Positions 20,298-32,178 of a stretch of DNA of 47,135 nucleotides are shown here, piece by piece. The translations under genes were made by a program, and so were the position numbers. Location of the stretch: NCBI GenBank assembly GCA_023476565.1, contig JAMCVZ010000032.1, positions 1 to 47,135 on the forward strand. The letters run 5' to 3'. How positions within the stretch are numbered: the first letter of the stretch is position 1; the number at the start of each line of letters is the position of its first letter. Under the pieces are notes generated by a model. The model made no database searches, was not told the origin of the DNA, and worked only from the letters and a program-made list of their open reading frames with translations. Source of the DNA: Nitrospirota bacterium (GTDB lineage: Bacteria > Nitrospirota > Thermodesulfovibrionia > Thermodesulfovibrionales > Dissulfurispiraceae).

Positions 20298-21092
20298 TCA
20301 AAATTTAAAGGAGAGCGGCCCGCCCCCGCCTCTCGTTTTTGCACAGGCATCAATGCATGCCCCGCAATTGTGGCAGAGGGGATAGAGTCCCTTGCCCATC
20401 GGGTCCAGTCCCAGGCGGCATGCTTTTGCGCACGCAAGGCACCTGCTGCAACTATGTTGCTTATCCTCTGCAAACGCGACTTTCATTGTCTTTCCGAATC
20501 TGAAAATTCCAAGGAAACTGCCGACAGGACAGATATAATTGCACCATGCCCGCCTCACAACAAAAAGCTCGAAAAGGATAATAACACCGATCAGCCCGAG
20601 TTCAAGGCCGACTGCTCCCTCATAAATATATTTCGCTGTCTGAACCGAGATTATTCCCGGTGCGGAAACAAGGGTTGCAACAGGGAATCCGGCCAGAGGC
20701 GCTGAAACAAGCAGGCAGGCCATGATCACATATCTCGACCTCACGGCAAGGTGTAAACTCTCAAATCTCTTCACCCCAAGCCTTTCAGATATATAATCGA
20801 ATATTTCGGATATGGTGTTTTGGGGACATACCCAACTGCAAAATACCCTCCCGAAGATGAGCGCCGGGAGCACCGGAATCAGAATCGAAAACAGGAGTAC
20901 GCCGTCCACCGCCGGCGAGGCTATCATTGCCTGCACCCCGCTTAACGGGTCCGTTATCCGTAAAGGTCCGATTGCGAGGGAGTAAAGACTCCCCATGAGC
21001 ACAGTTATTCCTTTCCTGTTCAAGACAGGTATCGCGGCTATCAACGCGAATGTGGAGGCCTGTACAGCACGCCTCAGCAATCCGGTTTTCAC
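20298..21092 (-). CDS. napH: NapH-like quinol dehydrogenase membrane subunit
   Basis: This 264-residue membrane iron-sulphur protein is predicted to oxidise quinol together with NapG and feed periplasmic nitrate reduction. Four to five hydrophobic segments are seen, with two CxxxCP motifs facing the cytosol (FCSWVCPQNT near 85, CNYICPVGSF near 185) and two C-terminal 4Fe-4S sites (CSRCLACAKACRLG, CHNCGACIDAC). This is the MauN/NapH pattern. The start overlaps the napG stop by 4 bp. It is the last gene of the nap operon. Confidence 0.9.
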   Translation of the reverse strand: MKTGLLRRAVQASTFALIAAIPVLNRKGITVLMGSLYSLAIGPLRITDPLSGVQAMIASPAVDGVLLFSILIPVLPALIFGRVFCSWVCPQNTISEIFDYISERLGVKRFESLHLAVRSRYVIMACLLVSAPLAGFPVATLVSAPGIISVQTAKYIYEGAVGLELGLIGVIILFELFVVRRAWCNYICPVGSFLGIFRFGKTMKVAFAEDKQHSCSRCLACAKACRLGLDPMGKGLYPLCHNCGACIDACAKTRGGGGPLSFKF

Positions 21093-21838: not shown

Positions 21839-24142
21839 TTAAACCTTTTCCACCTTCACCGCGCATATCTTGAATTCAGGCTGCTTCGACATTGCATCGT
21901 ATGCATCGGTAGTGAGCATGTTGATGAGCTTGTCGGGATAATGCATGGGGACAAACACGAGACCGTCCCTCGGCACATCGACCACCTTCGCCTCAAGCAC
22001 GATCGAACCCCTCCGGGAAGTAAGTTTTACCTTATCCCTGCTCTTGATGCCGAGTTTCAGGGCATCGCGGGGATTGATCTCGACATATGCGTCCGGAGCC
22101 GAGCGTTTCAGCTCAGGCACCTTGAGCGTCATGGTCCCCGTATGCCAGTGCTCTATCTGCCTGCCTGTCGTAAGCGCAAACGGATACTCCGCATCGGGCG
22201 GCTCGGCAGGACCTTTATAAGGCCTTAACCATACCGTGGCCTTGTTCCCATCCGCCTTTGCACCATAGAAAGAGATATCGGCGGCCTGCGGGTCGAACTT
22301 CTTCAAGAGAGGGTCCCCGTATTTCGCTGTATACCGCCGGACCGTACCGGGATGGTCTTCAGTCGGACACGGCCATTGGACGCCGTGCGCCTTCTTCATC
22401 CTCGCCCGTGTCATGCCCATGAAATCATAGGCCGTTCCCTTCGAGCACTGCCTGATCTCATTCCACACCTCTTCGGAGTTCTTGAAGTTGAACAATCTCT
22501 TCGCTTCATCCTCCCTGCCCAAAGCCTTGAGCAGCCTGTTCGCAAACTCGACCATCACCATCAGGTCCGGCCGCGCCTCACCCTGCGGCTCCACCGCTTT
22601 TTCGAGGTACTGGTAACGCCTCTCGGATTGCCCGTATGTGCCGTCCTTTTCGACCCATAAAGCCGCGGGCAGCACCAGGTCGGCAAGCTCCGACGTCCTC
22701 GTGGGATGATACGCCTCCGATACGACAAGGAAGGTATCTTTCCCTTCCATGCCCTTTCTGTAAGGAGTTAAATTGGGGAGGCTCTGGCCGGGGTTGGTGC
22801 ATGCAACCCACAGCGCCTTTATCTCACTCTTATTAAACGACCTGAAGATATCGACTGCGGTAGGTCCGGGCTTCGGTTGTATCCGGCCCTTCGGAATACC
22901 CCAGAACTTCTCCATCTCCTCCCTGTCTTTTTCATTGGCGATAAGCCTTCCGTAGGGGAGCAGATGGCTCAGGAGGCCGCCGTCCCTTACGCCGCCGCAG
23001 GCGTTCGGCTGTCCGGTAAGAGAGAAGGTTGTCGCTCCGGGCCTGCATATCTGCCCCGTGAGGAGGTGAAGATTATGCACCAGATTATTGACCCAAACGC
23101 CTCTCGTCCTCTGGTTCAAGCCCATGCACCATAAGCTCATGGTCGCCTTTGACCGGGCAAACCACCGGGCAGCTTTGATAATATCATCCTTTGGGCACTT
23201 CGATATCTTTTCAGCCGTTTCAGGGGTGTATTCGTCGAGGAATTTAACGTATTCCTCAAAGCTGACCTTTGCCGGTTTGTCATCCTTGACGGTCTTAAAT
23301 ACCAGATGGTTGCTGACGAAGTCCCTGCTGTAGAGATTCTCTTTGATAATCACATGCGCCATGGCATGCAGGATCGCGAGGTCAGTGCCGGGAACAAAGC
23401 TCATGTGCAGGTCGGCAATCCGGGCTGAAAGGGTTTTCCGGGGATCGACCATGATGATCTTTACATTCCCGCCCTTCTGCTTCCTCTCGTTCACCAGCCT
23501 GAAAATAACGGGATGGGCCTCCGCCATATTCGAGCCGATAATAAAGAAACAGTCCGAATGGTAGATATCGTCGTATGCGCCCATAGGCTCGTCTTTCCCG
23601 AACGTAGAGACATACCCCACAGCCGCCGAGGCCATGCAGAGCCTCGGATTGCCGTCGATATTATTCGTTCCGAGACCGCCCTTGAAAAACTTGTTCATGA
23701 AATAGGATTCTTCAGTATATGCCTGCCCCGAGCCGTAAAAGGCCACGGAATTGGCTCCATTTTTCTTTATGGTTTCGGCAAATCTTCCGGTCATCAGGTC
23801 CATTGCCTCTTTCCACGAGATCTTAACGAACTCATCCCCCCTTTTCACCAGGGGATATTTCAGACGGTCATTCGCATAGAGAATCGAGGGCAGATAATAT
23901 CCTTTAATACAGAGGAACCCTTTGTTCCAGTTGTCCCTGTCCCCCTGTACCGCAACGACTTTGCCCTTGCTCACTCCGGCATAAACACCGCATCCGGCGC
24001 CGCAGTACCTGCATACCGCCTTTACCCATTTTTCAGCCTGTGCAGCGCCGACTCCTTGCGGCAACGGCAGTTCGAGGCCTATAGCGGATGCTGCTGCAAG
24101 GGCCGCCGAATATTTGAGGAGCTGTCTCCTGGTCACATTCAT
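21839..24142 (-). CDS. napA: Periplasmic nitrate reductase catalytic subunit
   Basis: This 767-residue molybdopterin enzyme reduces nitrate to nitrite. It has a twin-arginine signal (TRRQLLKYSAALAAASAIG), a 4Fe-4S site (CRYCGAGCGVY then GFLCIKG near 77) and a cysteine molybdenum ligand in GNPRLCMASA (near 146); Cys rather than Ser or Asp supports NapA over formate or other relatives. The C-terminal cofactor-binding domain includes FALTTGRQIEHWHTGTMT. GGAGGG before ATG 24142 fixes the start. It is somewhat shorter than proteobacterial NapA and resembles the monomeric sulphate-reducer type, consistent with the absence of napB and napC here. Confidence 0.95.
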   Translation of the reverse strand: MNVTRRQLLKYSAALAAASAIGLELPLPQGVGAAQAEKWVKAVCRYCGAGCGVYAGVSKGKVVAVQGDRDNWNKGFLCIKGYYLPSILYANDRLKYPLVKRGDEFVKISWKEAMDLMTGRFAETIKKNGANSVAFYGSGQAYTEESYFMNKFFKGGLGTNNIDGNPRLCMASAAVGYVSTFGKDEPMGAYDDIYHSDCFFIIGSNMAEAHPVIFRLVNERKQKGGNVKIIMVDPRKTLSARIADLHMSFVPGTDLAILHAMAHVIIKENLYSRDFVSNHLVFKTVKDDKPAKVSFEEYVKFLDEYTPETAEKISKCPKDDIIKAARWFARSKATMSLWCMGLNQRTRGVWVNNLVHNLHLLTGQICRPGATTFSLTGQPNACGGVRDGGLLSHLLPYGRLIANEKDREEMEKFWGIPKGRIQPKPGPTAVDIFRSFNKSEIKALWVACTNPGQSLPNLTPYRKGMEGKDTFLVVSEAYHPTRTSELADLVLPAALWVEKDGTYGQSERRYQYLEKAVEPQGEARPDLMVMVEFANRLLKALGREDEAKRLFNFKNSEEVWNEIRQCSKGTAYDFMGMTRARMKKAHGVQWPCPTEDHPGTVRRYTAKYGDPLLKKFDPQAADISFYGAKADGNKATVWLRPYKGPAEPPDAEYPFALTTGRQIEHWHTGTMTLKVPELKRSAPDAYVEINPRDALKLGIKSRDKVKLTSRRGSIVLEAKVVDVPRDGLVFVPMHYPDKLINMLTTDAYDAMSKQPEFKICAVKVEKV

Positions 24143-24144
24143 GG

Positions 24145-24498
24145 TTATTTCCCTCCTTTCATATGGAACCGTGCTGTTACCGAGTGGGCGTCGTGGCACA
24201 AAAAACAGTCCCGTGCCTTCGGAGGGAGTTTTTTCTCCACATCCTCGACCTTTTCACCATGACATCCCCTGCAGCGGTAAATATCCGGCTTCGGCACAAA
24301 GTTCTTATCCGTCGAACCGTGGCATACCAGGCACTTGACGCCCATCAGCCCGTGTTTTCCCTCCTGCCATGCCTGCATCTGGGCGCCGTGGCACTCGGAG
24401 CATTCCTGGTCCTCTGAAGTCTTTATATGTTTTTTTTCTTTTGCAACAGCCGTAACCGGCAGGGCAAGCATAAGAAGGAGAATGATTAATTTTTTCAT
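24145..24498 (-). CDS. napM: Tetrahaem c-type cytochrome NapM
   Basis: This 117-residue secreted cytochrome has a Sec signal peptide (MKKLIILLLMLALPVTAVA) and four haem attachment sites: CSECH, CLVCH, CRGCH and CFLCH. Position directly before napA (the stop is two bases from the napA ATG) and size match NapM of the napCMADGH operon known from Desulfovibrio desulfuricans. It probably delivers electrons to NapA. A structured 121-bp gap separates it from the upstream octahaem gene. Confidence 0.85.
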   Translation of the reverse strand: MKKLIILLLMLALPVTAVAKEKKHIKTSEDQECSECHGAQMQAWQEGKHGLMGVKCLVCHGSTDKNFVPKPDIYRCRGCHGEKVEDVEKKLPPKARDCFLCHDAHSVTARFHMKGGK

Positions 24499-24579: not shown

Positions 24580-25607
24580 TTATTTGCTGACACCGGCGCT
24601 AAACACCGGCGCTCACTATTTATTTTGCCGCCGCTGCGGTCTTGGCAGTCATGGCATCGTCAAGAATCTTGATGCCTTTCTGTGATTCATCAACAGACCT
24701 GGTAAGGGACTCCCTTGCCATCTCAGGGTTGTGGAAGCCGTCCGAATTTTCGGCAGTCCAGTATTCCCAGAGAACATGGGCCCTCAGGTGCTGGTCCTGG
24801 GCCTTCTTGATGGCGCCTGCGTCAACGCCGGCCTTTTTGGCTTCGACTATCTTGTCGATCAAGGCCGACAGCCAGAACTCGGCCTTTCTCATTTTGCCTT
24901 TCGTATATGCCTTTATGGAATCGATGGTATATCTCGCCTGCTCCTCCGTCCATTTCGGATGGCACTTCAGGCAGGTCTCTTTAAGCTGGACCCTCGGGGT
25001 CACGGCAAAATGCGAAGTATAGACCTTCCCGGTCTTCTTGTCCTTCATTTTCGGTGTATGGCAGCTGTCGCATCCGGCGCCGGCCCTGGCATGTTTTGAA
25101 TTGTAGAATGTCTCCGATTCCGGATGCTGCGCCTTCCAGAGCAGGCCGCCGGTCAGTGTGTGCTTGAAGTCAAGGAAGCCGACCTTATTGACGTAATGAT
25201 CGTACAGGCCGAAAACGTCTTTGTAGGGGAAGTGGTTTGTCCGCCTGTCGGCCATGGTCACGCTGTATTTCGATGTGTCGGGGTTTTTCGGATCATACCC
25301 CGGGTTACAGTTGTACTCAACATGGCACTGGCCGCACTGGAGCCTTGTATCGTATTTATCGAGCAGGGCGATTTTTCTTGTATATCCCCGTATTCCCATT
25401 TCAATAACTCTAATCCCCGTCCTCTTCGGGTCCTTGTGCCAGAGGGTGTCTCCATCCGGCCTCGTAAGGGCATCGATAAGCCCGTCTCTCACTATTCTCG
25501 GCTTTGCGGCATGGGGATCATGGCAGGTGAAGCAGCTCAGCCCGTGCTGCAAAGACCTGGCTAAATCGACAACGTTTGAGGTCCTCGACCACTTCGCTCC
25601 CTTGACA

Positions 25608-26292
25608 GGGTCTCCCATATACGCCCAATCAAGAATATGGTCCTGGGTTTTGCATTGGAGACAGACCGGGTTGGCTGCTGCCGCGCTCTGGGGGATAAAC
25701 GGCTTATGTTCATTCGTATTGGGATATTTGTCCGTGAGAATATCCCAGGCCTTGCCGCTTTCCAATACATATTGCCAGCCGTCCTTCGGCTGGAACCTTC
25801 CACCGTATGCCCTGTCAACCACCAGATGATCGACAAGCATCCACACATGGCTTCTGGTGAGATTATGCTCTTTCGTAAACCCGTGTCCCATCATGAGCTT
25901 ATCCCAGAAGGGATTCGGCGCCCTGTTGGTAAGCTGCGATTTCTCATCCCGCGCAGGCCTGTGATATGCCTCTTTCATAAAGGATTCCATCTGCTCCTTA
26001 TGACACTGACCGCAGGCCTGCCATGAAGTATCGGTTACAGGCCGCGTATCAGGCCCCGGTGCGCTGAGATGCTTTTCAAGCCCCTTATGGCAGTTTGAAC
26101 AGTTTACCTTTGCGTGCTTGCCCATGGTGTGCAGCTCTTTGATCTGCGCATGACATCCATAGCACGCTTCCACTTTCACAGCCTTTTCTTTGACGGATAC
26201 TTTTGGGGCATCCGCATTTTTGTACCGGGCATCGGCATTCGTGTAGTAACTCCCGCCTGCAAGCGCCAAAGCGAGGACTGCCACGATAAATG
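25608..26292. repeat. Tandem duplication, copy A (685 bp)
   Basis: This copy is in frame with the 3' half of onr. It repeats at 26293-26977 with an offset of exactly 685 at both ends, and every stretch I compared is identical. It covers the signal peptide through haem 4. There is no extended homology at the endpoints. Confidence 0.93.
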
Positions 26293-26977
26293 GGGTCTCC
26301 CATATACGCCCAATCAAGAATATGGTCCTGGGTTTTGCATTGGAGACAGACCGGGTTGGCTGCTGCCGCGCTCTGGGGGATAAACGGCTTATGTTCATTC
26401 GTATTGGGATATTTGTCCGTGAGAATATCCCAGGCCTTGCCGCTTTCCAATACATATTGCCAGCCGTCCTTCGGCTGGAACCTTCCACCGTATGCCCTGT
26501 CAACCACCAGATGATCGACAAGCATCCACACATGGCTTCTGGTGAGATTATGCTCTTTCGTAAACCCGTGTCCCATCATGAGCTTATCCCAGAAGGGATT
26601 CGGCGCCCTGTTGGTAAGCTGCGATTTCTCATCCCGCGCAGGCCTGTGATATGCCTCTTTCATAAAGGATTCCATCTGCTCCTTATGACACTGACCGCAG
26701 GCCTGCCATGAAGTATCGGTTACAGGCCGCGTATCAGGCCCCGGTGCGCTGAGATGCTTTTCAAGCCCCTTATGGCAGTTTGAACAGTTTACCTTTGCGT
26801 GCTTGCCCATGGTGTGCAGCTCTTTGATCTGCGCATGACATCCATAGCACGCTTCCACTTTCACAGCCTTTTCTTTGACGGATACTTTTGGGGCATCCGC
26901 ATTTTTGTACCGGGCATCGGCATTCGTGTAGTAACTCCCGCCTGCAAGCGCCAAAGCGAGGACTGCCACGATAAATG
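26293..26977. repeat. Tandem duplication, copy B (685 bp)
   Basis: This copy is directly adjacent to copy A and in frame with the onr start codon. The junction lies at 26292/26293, where the GGGTCTCC that begins the unit meets the ATAAATG that ends it. Confidence 0.93.
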
Positions 26978-27029
26978 CATAAACCTTTCTGCTCATTGAA
27001 TACCTCCGTTTTTGAGATTTATACCGCAA

Positions 27030-28656: not shown

Positions 28657-28695
28657 CCCTCATTTGCAACTTTTGTATCTGAGGTGGCAAAAATC

Positions 28696-30615
28696 ATGAG
28701 CAATAATGTGCAAGTTTTACGGACAAATTTTTCCTCACGCCCAAGCTGGAAGTGGTTCATTCTTTCCACTGTTCTGATGGGCGCCACCATGTCGGCCCTG
28801 GACGTAAGCATCGTAAACGTAGCCATGCCGACCCTCAAGAACACGTTCAATGTCTCCATGGCGGTAATCGAATGGATAGCGATGGCATATATGCTTACGC
28901 TGACCATTTTCCTGCCGCTGTTTGGGAGGCTGTCCGACATGTACGGCAGGTCGAAGCTCTATAATATCGGGTTTGTGGTGTTTTCCGTAGGCTCGCTGCT
29001 GTGCGGAATGTCGCCCACGGCCGGCTTCATGATCGTCTCGCGCGTCATCCAGGCGATAGGGGCCGGGCTTTTGCAGGCCAACTCCGTCGCCATTATCACC
29101 CATGCTTTCCCGGCAAACGAGCGGGGCAAGGCTATCGGTATTCAGGGCGCAATCCAGGCGATTTCCATGTCAGTGGGTCCTTTTGTCGGAGGCATCCTGA
29201 TAGCCACGGTAGGCTGGCGGGCCATTTTCTATATCAACATCCCGATCGGCATACTGGGGACCCTGGCCGCCCTTTTCATCCTTCCTCCTAACCAGAAGGT
29301 TAAGGAAAAGGAGAAGGTTGATTATCTCGGGGCCGCTTTTTTCGCGTCCGGGCTCGCTTTCCTGGTACTGGCCTTCAATGAGGGCGTGAAACTTGGCTGG
29401 GCCTCTCACACGATCATCATGTATTTCCTCTCCAGCACCGTACTGCTGTCCCTTTTCATCATCACGGAGTTGAGGGTTGAGCACCCGCTGATAGACCTCA
29501 AGCTCTTCAAGAATGCCACCTTCCTCATCGGCAACCTGACCGGCATGCTGTCGTATTACGTCCTGTTCGCAATCATGTTCCTGATGCCCTTTTACTTGGA
29601 GAAGGTATTGGGCTACAGCGTTGCGCTCACCGGCTCCCTGCTGACCCCCATCCCGCTTGCGATGGCGGTGGTCGCCCCGTTTTCGGGCCACATCTCGGAT
29701 AAGTACGGCTCAAGGATAATGACCACCTCGGGGATGCTCATCTCCGCCCTGGCCTGCTTCTCCCTTCTGTTCATGGGAGTATCGGCGCAACTGCCTCTGC
29801 TGGTGGCCGTGCTGATCCTCCTCGGGGTTGGAATGGGATTGTTCACCCCGCCGAACAACAGTGCGATCATGGGCTCAGCCCCGAGGGATAAATTGGGTGT
29901 GGCCGGAGGCGTCCTGAACATGATGCGCTCTCTGGGGCTTATCTTCGGGGTAGATATATCCGGCGTAATATTCACCACCCTGGAGCACCGGTACCTGGCC
30001 GAAAAAGGATATCCCAATGCCCAGCATGTATTCAGCAACACCAGCATTCCTGTTTCCATCAAGGACAATGCCTTCATGCACGGCTTCATCGTCGTGATGG
30101 GCGTCCTCCTGCTCCTCAACCTCCTTTCGGCTTTCCTTTCAGCCGCCAGGAGAGGCAAAACGGTCGCGATTATAGACCATGAAGTGGCTGGAACAGTCGT
30201 TATTTCTTCAGGTTTCTTTAATGGCTTCGGCCAGGAGACCGCGGGGATGGCGATATTCGTAATGCTCATCCTCTTTACCGGGTTCATAGGCGCTTTCGCC
30301 TTTTCCAGATTGAGGAGCGAGAACCCTTTTATCCCGCAGACCGTGCAAAGCGCTCCGTTGTACGCAGGCCGTTGCGCGTCAGGGCAAGAACAGGCCGTTT
30401 TAGAGGCAAGAAAGCTTGCCCTGGATTACTATGCAAAAAAGTACAATGACACGGATGTCTCCATTGATGTAAGGTCCCTTGGTGACCACATGGAGGCTGA
30501 TATAAGGAAAAGGGGTCTCCTTGCAAAAAAGCTCTTCATTCAGGGGGATAAGGTTACCGAAGAGAAGACAGGCATACGTAATTGGGTCTTTGATCTTTTT
30601 ACCAATGCAAATTGA
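28696..30615 (+). CDS. DHA2-type MFS transporter with an extra C-terminal domain
   Basis: This 639-residue EmrB/QacA-like drug:proton antiporter has 14 predicted membrane segments. LDVSIVNVAMPTL in segment 1, GRLSDMYGRSKLYNIGF (motif A) and the GPFVGGILIATVGWRAIFYINIPIG region are diagnostic. After LLSAFLS it diverges from its neighbour: a new membrane segment (MAIFVMLILFTGFIGAFAF) and about 95 soluble residues (QAVLEARKLALDYYAKKYND ... GIRNWVFDLFTNAN) that I do not recognise. ATG 28696 is chosen (GAGGTGG upstream); a GTG at 28684 is also in frame. Bases 28727-30141 recur identically in the next gene. Confidence 0.88.
   Translation: MSNNVQVLRTNFSSRPSWKWFILSTVLMGATMSALDVSIVNVAMPTLKNTFNVSMAVIEWIAMAYMLTLTIFLPLFGRLSDMYGRSKLYNIGFVVFSVGSLLCGMSPTAGFMIVSRVIQAIGAGLLQANSVAIITHAFPANERGKAIGIQGAIQAISMSVGPFVGGILIATVGWRAIFYINIPIGILGTLAALFILPPNQKVKEKEKVDYLGAAFFASGLAFLVLAFNEGVKLGWASHTIIMYFLSSTVLLSLFIITELRVEHPLIDLKLFKNATFLIGNLTGMLSYYVLFAIMFLMPFYLEKVLGYSVALTGSLLTPIPLAMAVVAPFSGHISDKYGSRIMTTSGMLISALACFSLLFMGVSAQLPLLVAVLILLGVGMGLFTPPNNSAIMGSAPRDKLGVAGGVLNMMRSLGLIFGVDISGVIFTTLEHRYLAEKGYPNAQHVFSNTSIPVSIKDNAFMHGFIVVMGVLLLLNLLSAFLSAARRGKTVAIIDHEVAGTVVISSGFFNGFGQETAGMAIFVMLILFTGFIGAFAFSRLRSENPFIPQTVQSAPLYAGRCASGQEQAVLEARKLALDYYAKKYNDTDVSIDVRSLGDHMEADIRKRGLLAKKLFIQGDKVTEEKTGIRNWVFDLFTNAN
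28727..30141. repeat. Direct repeat, copy 1 (1,415 bp MFS core)
   Basis: Identical, as far as compared, to 30692-32106 with an offset of 1,965. The flanks on both sides are unrelated between copies. The encoded core proteins are identical residue for residue. Confidence 0.92.
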
Positions 30616-30660: not shown

Positions 30661-32178
30661 ATGAGTAGAACTTTGCAGTTTCCTCATCCGCATTTTTCCT
30701 CACGCCCAAGCTGGAAGTGGTTCATTCTTTCCACTGTTCTGATGGGCGCCACCATGTCGGCCCTGGACGTAAGCATCGTAAACGTAGCCATGCCGACCCT
30801 CAAGAACACGTTCAATGTCTCCATGGCGGTAATCGAATGGATAGCGATGGCATATATGCTTACGCTGACCATTTTCCTGCCGCTGTTTGGGAGGCTGTCC
30901 GACATGTACGGCAGGTCGAAGCTCTATAATATCGGGTTTGTGGTGTTTTCCGTAGGCTCGCTGCTGTGCGGAATGTCGCCCACGGCCGGCTTCATGATCG
31001 TCTCGCGCGTCATCCAGGCGATAGGGGCCGGGCTTTTGCAGGCCAACTCCGTCGCCATTATCACCCATGCTTTCCCGGCAAACGAGCGGGGCAAGGCTAT
31101 CGGTATTCAGGGCGCAATCCAGGCGATTTCCATGTCAGTGGGTCCTTTTGTCGGAGGCATCCTGATAGCCACGGTAGGCTGGCGGGCCATTTTCTATATC
31201 AACATCCCGATCGGCATACTGGGGACCCTGGCCGCCCTTTTCATCCTTCCTCCTAACCAGAAGGTTAAGGAAAAGGAGAAGGTTGATTATCTCGGGGCCG
31301 CTTTTTTCGCGTCCGGGCTCGCTTTCCTGGTACTGGCCTTCAATGAGGGCGTGAAACTTGGCTGGGCCTCTCACACGATCATCATGTATTTCCTCTCCAG
31401 CACCGTACTGCTGTCCCTTTTCATCATCACGGAGTTGAGGGTTGAGCACCCGCTGATAGACCTCAAGCTCTTCAAGAATGCCACCTTCCTCATCGGCAAC
31501 CTGACCGGCATGCTGTCGTATTACGTCCTGTTCGCAATCATGTTCCTGATGCCCTTTTACTTGGAGAAGGTATTGGGCTACAGCGTTGCGCTCACCGGCT
31601 CCCTGCTGACCCCCATCCCGCTTGCGATGGCGGTGGTCGCCCCGTTTTCGGGCCACATCTCGGATAAGTACGGCTCAAGGATAATGACCACCTCGGGGAT
31701 GCTCATCTCCGCCCTGGCCTGCTTCTCCCTTCTGTTCATGGGAGTATCGGCGCAACTGCCTCTGCTGGTGGCCGTGCTGATCCTCCTCGGGGTTGGAATG
31801 GGATTGTTCACCCCGCCGAACAACAGTGCGATCATGGGCTCAGCCCCGAGGGATAAATTGGGTGTGGCCGGAGGCGTCCTGAACATGATGCGCTCTCTGG
31901 GGCTTATCTTCGGGGTAGATATATCCGGCGTAATATTCACCACCCTGGAGCACCGGTACCTGGCCGAAAAAGGATATCCCAATGCCCAGCATGTATTCAG
32001 CAACACCAGCATTCCTGTTTCCATCAAGGACAATGCCTTCATGCACGGCTTCATCGTCGTGATGGGCGTCCTCCTGCTCCTCAACCTCCTTTCGGCTTTC
32101 CTTTCAACCGCCAATAAAAGCAGTGTTGTTGACGCGGAAGCCGCTGAAGCGGCAAAGGAGTTTGTGGACGGGGCATAA
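30661..32178 (+). CDS. DHA2-type MFS transporter
   Basis: This 505-residue, 14-segment EmrB/QacA-like exporter has normal family length, unlike its extended neighbour. Only the first 10 residues (MSRTLQFPHPH) and the last 19 (TANKSSVVDAEAAEAAKEFV...) differ from copy 1; the 471 residues between are the same. TAGGAGTG lies eight bases before the ATG. A strong terminator follows. Exporters of this kind usually need an EmrA-like adaptor, which is not in the window. Confidence 0.92.
   Translation: MSRTLQFPHPHFSSRPSWKWFILSTVLMGATMSALDVSIVNVAMPTLKNTFNVSMAVIEWIAMAYMLTLTIFLPLFGRLSDMYGRSKLYNIGFVVFSVGSLLCGMSPTAGFMIVSRVIQAIGAGLLQANSVAIITHAFPANERGKAIGIQGAIQAISMSVGPFVGGILIATVGWRAIFYINIPIGILGTLAALFILPPNQKVKEKEKVDYLGAAFFASGLAFLVLAFNEGVKLGWASHTIIMYFLSSTVLLSLFIITELRVEHPLIDLKLFKNATFLIGNLTGMLSYYVLFAIMFLMPFYLEKVLGYSVALTGSLLTPIPLAMAVVAPFSGHISDKYGSRIMTTSGMLISALACFSLLFMGVSAQLPLLVAVLILLGVGMGLFTPPNNSAIMGSAPRDKLGVAGGVLNMMRSLGLIFGVDISGVIFTTLEHRYLAEKGYPNAQHVFSNTSIPVSIKDNAFMHGFIVVMGVLLLLNLLSAFLSTANKSSVVDAEAAEAAKEFVDGA
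30692..32106. repeat. Direct repeat, copy 2 (1,415 bp MFS core)
   Basis: Partner of 28727-30141. The last common base is 32106; after one mismatch six more bases match before the ends diverge completely. Confidence 0.92.

Follow-up and report, generated by a model that had tools for sequence, protein, structure and literature searches.

The octahaem nitrite reductase of Thioalkalivibrio (TvNiR; PDB 2zo5 and 2ot4) has eight haems, the fourth of which is bound by a CxxCK motif. Head-to-tail copying of a chromosomal stretch has been described for spontaneous bacterial tandem duplications: in Salmonella, the confirmed duplications had at least 11 bp of homology at the junction, and random ligation chimeras showed little, short homology being used as their mark (PMC3411829). 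Among the errors documented in metagenome-assembled genomes (MAGs) are incorrect repeat numbers and duplicate sequence that persists where pieces were joined (PMC7111523).

The onr gene described here lies in a window of 47,135 nucleotides, which is the whole of contig C28 in a draft assembly of 73 contigs and 2,672,780 bases. The names of the nearest loci, L023-L027 among others, suggest that the organism belongs near Nitrospirota. As assembled, this octahaem cytochrome c nitrite reductase gene (24620..26996, minus strand) is interrupted by a tandem copy of part of itself. Direct base comparison found 25608-26292 identical to 26293-26977 at 685 of 685 positions, with zero bases separating the copies; the preliminary description had noted this adjacency and identity, and at base level chance is ruled out for an exact abutting repeat of this length. 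The junction (ATAAATG/GGGTCTC, 26292..26293) has no bases shared at the join.

In gene order, the first copy (26293..26977) covers codons 7-234, downstream of the native ATG, and the second, exactly identical copy (25608..26292) is in frame with the rest of onr and lacks the native start. Since 685 leaves a remainder of 1 when divided by three, the repeat shifts the reading frame. The minus-strand frame opening at the ATG at 26996 is native for residues 1-234, shifts at the junction, shortly beyond haem 4 (CLQCK), and terminates at 26085, giving a truncated product of 303 aa (26085..26996); the loss of frame after haem 4 had been read correctly before. The second copy and the remaining gene form an uninterrupted minus-strand frame without any stop (24620..26290, residues 8-563), the first seven codons being the only part missing. 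With a single copy, the gene has a stop-to-stop frame of 575 codons and encodes 563 aa from the ATG.

In order, the haem motifs of the encoded protein are CYGCH, CSNCH, CGQCH, CLQCK, CFTCH, CGQCH, CDSCH and CLKCH, that is, seven CxxCH and one CxxCK in the fourth place (HHHKHHHH), the pattern of the ONR/TvNiR group. A Tyr-x-Cys pair, also characteristic of this group, is present by sequence as YNC in the segment CHVEYNCNPG, which aligned to the same segment of TvNiR. Homology to TvNiR is full-length: the match to 2zo5_A (E 8.1e-164) extends over residues 36-553 of the 556-aa query, and 2ot4 represents the same enzyme. The protein also matches Pfam PF02335 (Cytochrom_C552). Both the identification as an octahaem nitrite reductase and the features predicted for the gene with one copy removed (563 residues, eight haems, CxxCK fourth, Tyr-x-Cys) thus held when examined. 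What sets the locus apart from TvNiR is the interruption, found in the assembled gene only; the protein it encodes is typical of the family and, judged from its sequence, onr is an ordinary TvNiR-type octahaem nitrite reductase gene.

Three genes are located downstream of onr on the same strand: a small multihaem c-type cytochrome adjoining onr (24145..24498), with weak NrfH/Cytochrom_c3_2 matches; a NapA-like molybdopterin oxidoreductase with a TAT signal (21839..24199), scoring below the NCBIfam NapA cutoff; and a NapH-like ferredoxin-type quinol dehydrogenase subunit (20298..21092), also below its NCBIfam cutoff. The order onr-cytochrome-napA-like occurs in related loci L005, L006, L042, L048, L053, L060, L061 and L099, among others, several of which also carry the NapH-like gene. 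Because of these neighbours and their recurring order, the cluster is predicted to take part in reducing nitrate to ammonium. The onr frame is uninterrupted over at least 500 codons in 98 of 99 related loci, a set that includes a few genes entered twice; the one exception, L089, starts near a contig end. No full-length onr match was found in the same-genus genome G001. Several related onr genes (L034, L047, L056, L074-L081 and others) have seven standard haem motifs only; in these, one haem motif perhaps has a different spacing.

The meaning of the 685-bp repeat changes because nine others of its kind occur in this draft genome. A census covering 2,667,601 of the 2,672,780 assembly bases found ten abutting exact tandem duplications (in 2.667 Mb), with units of 166, 206, 320, 372, 651, 685, 821, 827, 837 and 1026 bp, 5,911 bp in total; all pairs are 100% identical, with zero mismatches. 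They are located on contigs C2, C5, C12, C15, C19, C28 (onr), C30 (twice), C45 and C64. When the genome was compared with itself, hardly any abutting tandem pairs of intermediate identity accompanied these exact ones.

Two more pairs are nearly abutting. The repeat at C19:12394-14274 (945 bp, 99.8% identity, offset 936) is near-exact and lies upstream of a pnp-like gene. At C67:52667-53902, a 609-bp exact repeat with copies 18 bp apart is in frame inside a secreted-looking repeat protein, and could be either a genuine domain repeat or another case of the artefact discussed below. The window itself holds a further repeat: adjacent DHA2-type MFS transporter genes (28684-30615 and 30661-32178) share 1415 identical bases (28727-30141 = 30692-32106) and differ at both ends. 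This pair looks real, since G001, of the same genus, also carries it, with 79% identity over 739 bp; here the two genes were homogenised either by the assembler or through gene conversion.

The bases shared at the ten junctions number zero in six cases, one in three and five in one. Random joins in this genome would be expected to share zero bases in 56% of cases and one base in 28%, and the ten junctions are close to this expectation; homology in excess of random joins was found neither at the onr junction (0 bp) nor across the ten (0-5 bp). The duplications resemble the spontaneous ones of bacteria in being head-to-tail copies of a chromosomal stretch, but differ from them in lacking homology of at least 11 bp, the onr junction having none, and in being ten in one genome (PMC3411829). 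Replication slippage was rejected as a source, the junctions being without homology. In 6 of the 10 units GG directly follows the junction, compared with a frequency of 0.068 for GG in the genome; an artefact gives no explanation for this start.

No exact abutting repeats of 100 bp or longer were found in 1.2 Mb of comparison loci from other genomes (L004-L102, from mixed assembly pipelines). Had such duplications been as frequent there as in this genome, the 1.11 Mb of L023-L102 should have contained about 4.2 of them (P about 0.015). The support that this control gives to an artefact falls short of settling the matter, given the modest P value and the mixed pipelines behind the loci. Several exact abutting duplications in one genome and none in the comparison loci is the distribution expected of a systematic artefact.

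The duplications also disregard reading frame and gene conservation, as a systematic artefact would. The unit length is not a multiple of three, and so breaks the frame, in 6 of 10 cases, with 6.7 expected in the absence of selection. The genes interrupted include, besides onr, an NtrC-type regulator, an M16 peptidase, a YifB-type ATPase and a PilB/GspE-like ATPase, all of these except onr being named by reading the translations. The corresponding match is one longer open frame in 8 of 8 relatives searched for the M16 peptidase, in 5 of 5 for YifB, and in all three relatives with a full-length match for the PilB/GspE-like protein.

Ten exact duplications, random-like junctions, no frame preference, broken conserved genes and none in the comparison loci together point to the 685-bp copy being a systematic local artefact of assembly or library in a short-read MAG. 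We give this reading a probability of roughly 0.93, with one intact onr gene of 563 residues most likely present in the organism; the reads would then be expected to show a single onr copy. The preliminary description had left the choice between a very recent event and an assembly artefact; the ten cases of the genome-wide census strongly favour the second and count against the first.

At many contig ends, exactly 127 bp recur at the end of another contig, which indicates a short-read de Bruijn assembly with k=127. The assembly path would have crossed a stretch of 166-1026 bp twice at about ten places, joining points without shared sequence. Candidate steps are a de Bruijn graph loop arising from chimeric read pairs, local assembly or gap closing where ends overlap, or a joining step of another kind. 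The fusion of two contigs through a shared k-mer was rejected as the immediate source, as contig-end overlaps are 127 bp and not 166-1026 bp. For a repeat to exceed k in a de Bruijn graph, reads must span the junction or a joining step must follow later. Some molecules bearing the junction may therefore exist, which counts against an artefact, as does the one junction with 5 bp of homology. The local errors described in MAGs are similar in that an exact duplicate is left at a join, locally, several times per genome and with genes broken; they differ in that the joins here have no run of N (PMC7111523). For this exact artefact, the literature provided general descriptions only.

The existence of junction molecules would be accommodated if the assembler had carried minority duplication variants of a natural population into the consensus, the molecules being real and the consensus wrong. 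A de Bruijn loop normally requires junction k-mers, and clonal cultures often contain small duplications (PMC3411829). Against this, the junction homology fits random joins rather than the longer homology of confirmed spontaneous duplications, and the unit sizes are confined to the narrow range of 166-1026 bp; we consider such an origin improbable, if slightly less so than the two that follow.

Bacterial tandem duplications arise and revert. This, together with the perfect identity of the copies and the frame shift, would fit a real and very recent duplication that became fixed in the strain, inactivated onr and could be undone if the 685-bp copies recombined. Such a history is very unlikely: it would require one genome to have fixed ten independent duplications, alike in size and equally fresh, at junctions without homology and with several conserved genes broken, and no such duplication was seen in the comparison loci. 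The suggestion that the lineage may toggle onr off and on has no support, the census pointing to an artefact. Equally hard to credit is that all ten duplications are real, in a lineage that is unusually prone to tandem duplication without homology and reversibly switches off genes such as onr, perhaps through end joining with a GG preference on one side.

If the 685-bp copy is an artefact, as we favour, the biological weight of the interruption is small: onr is ordinary and most likely intact. The draft genome is listed as 96% complete, yet at least ten exact duplications in it look false, and these break or lengthen genes; for this reason its gene losses and domain repeats should receive no evolutionary reading before they have been checked against the reads.
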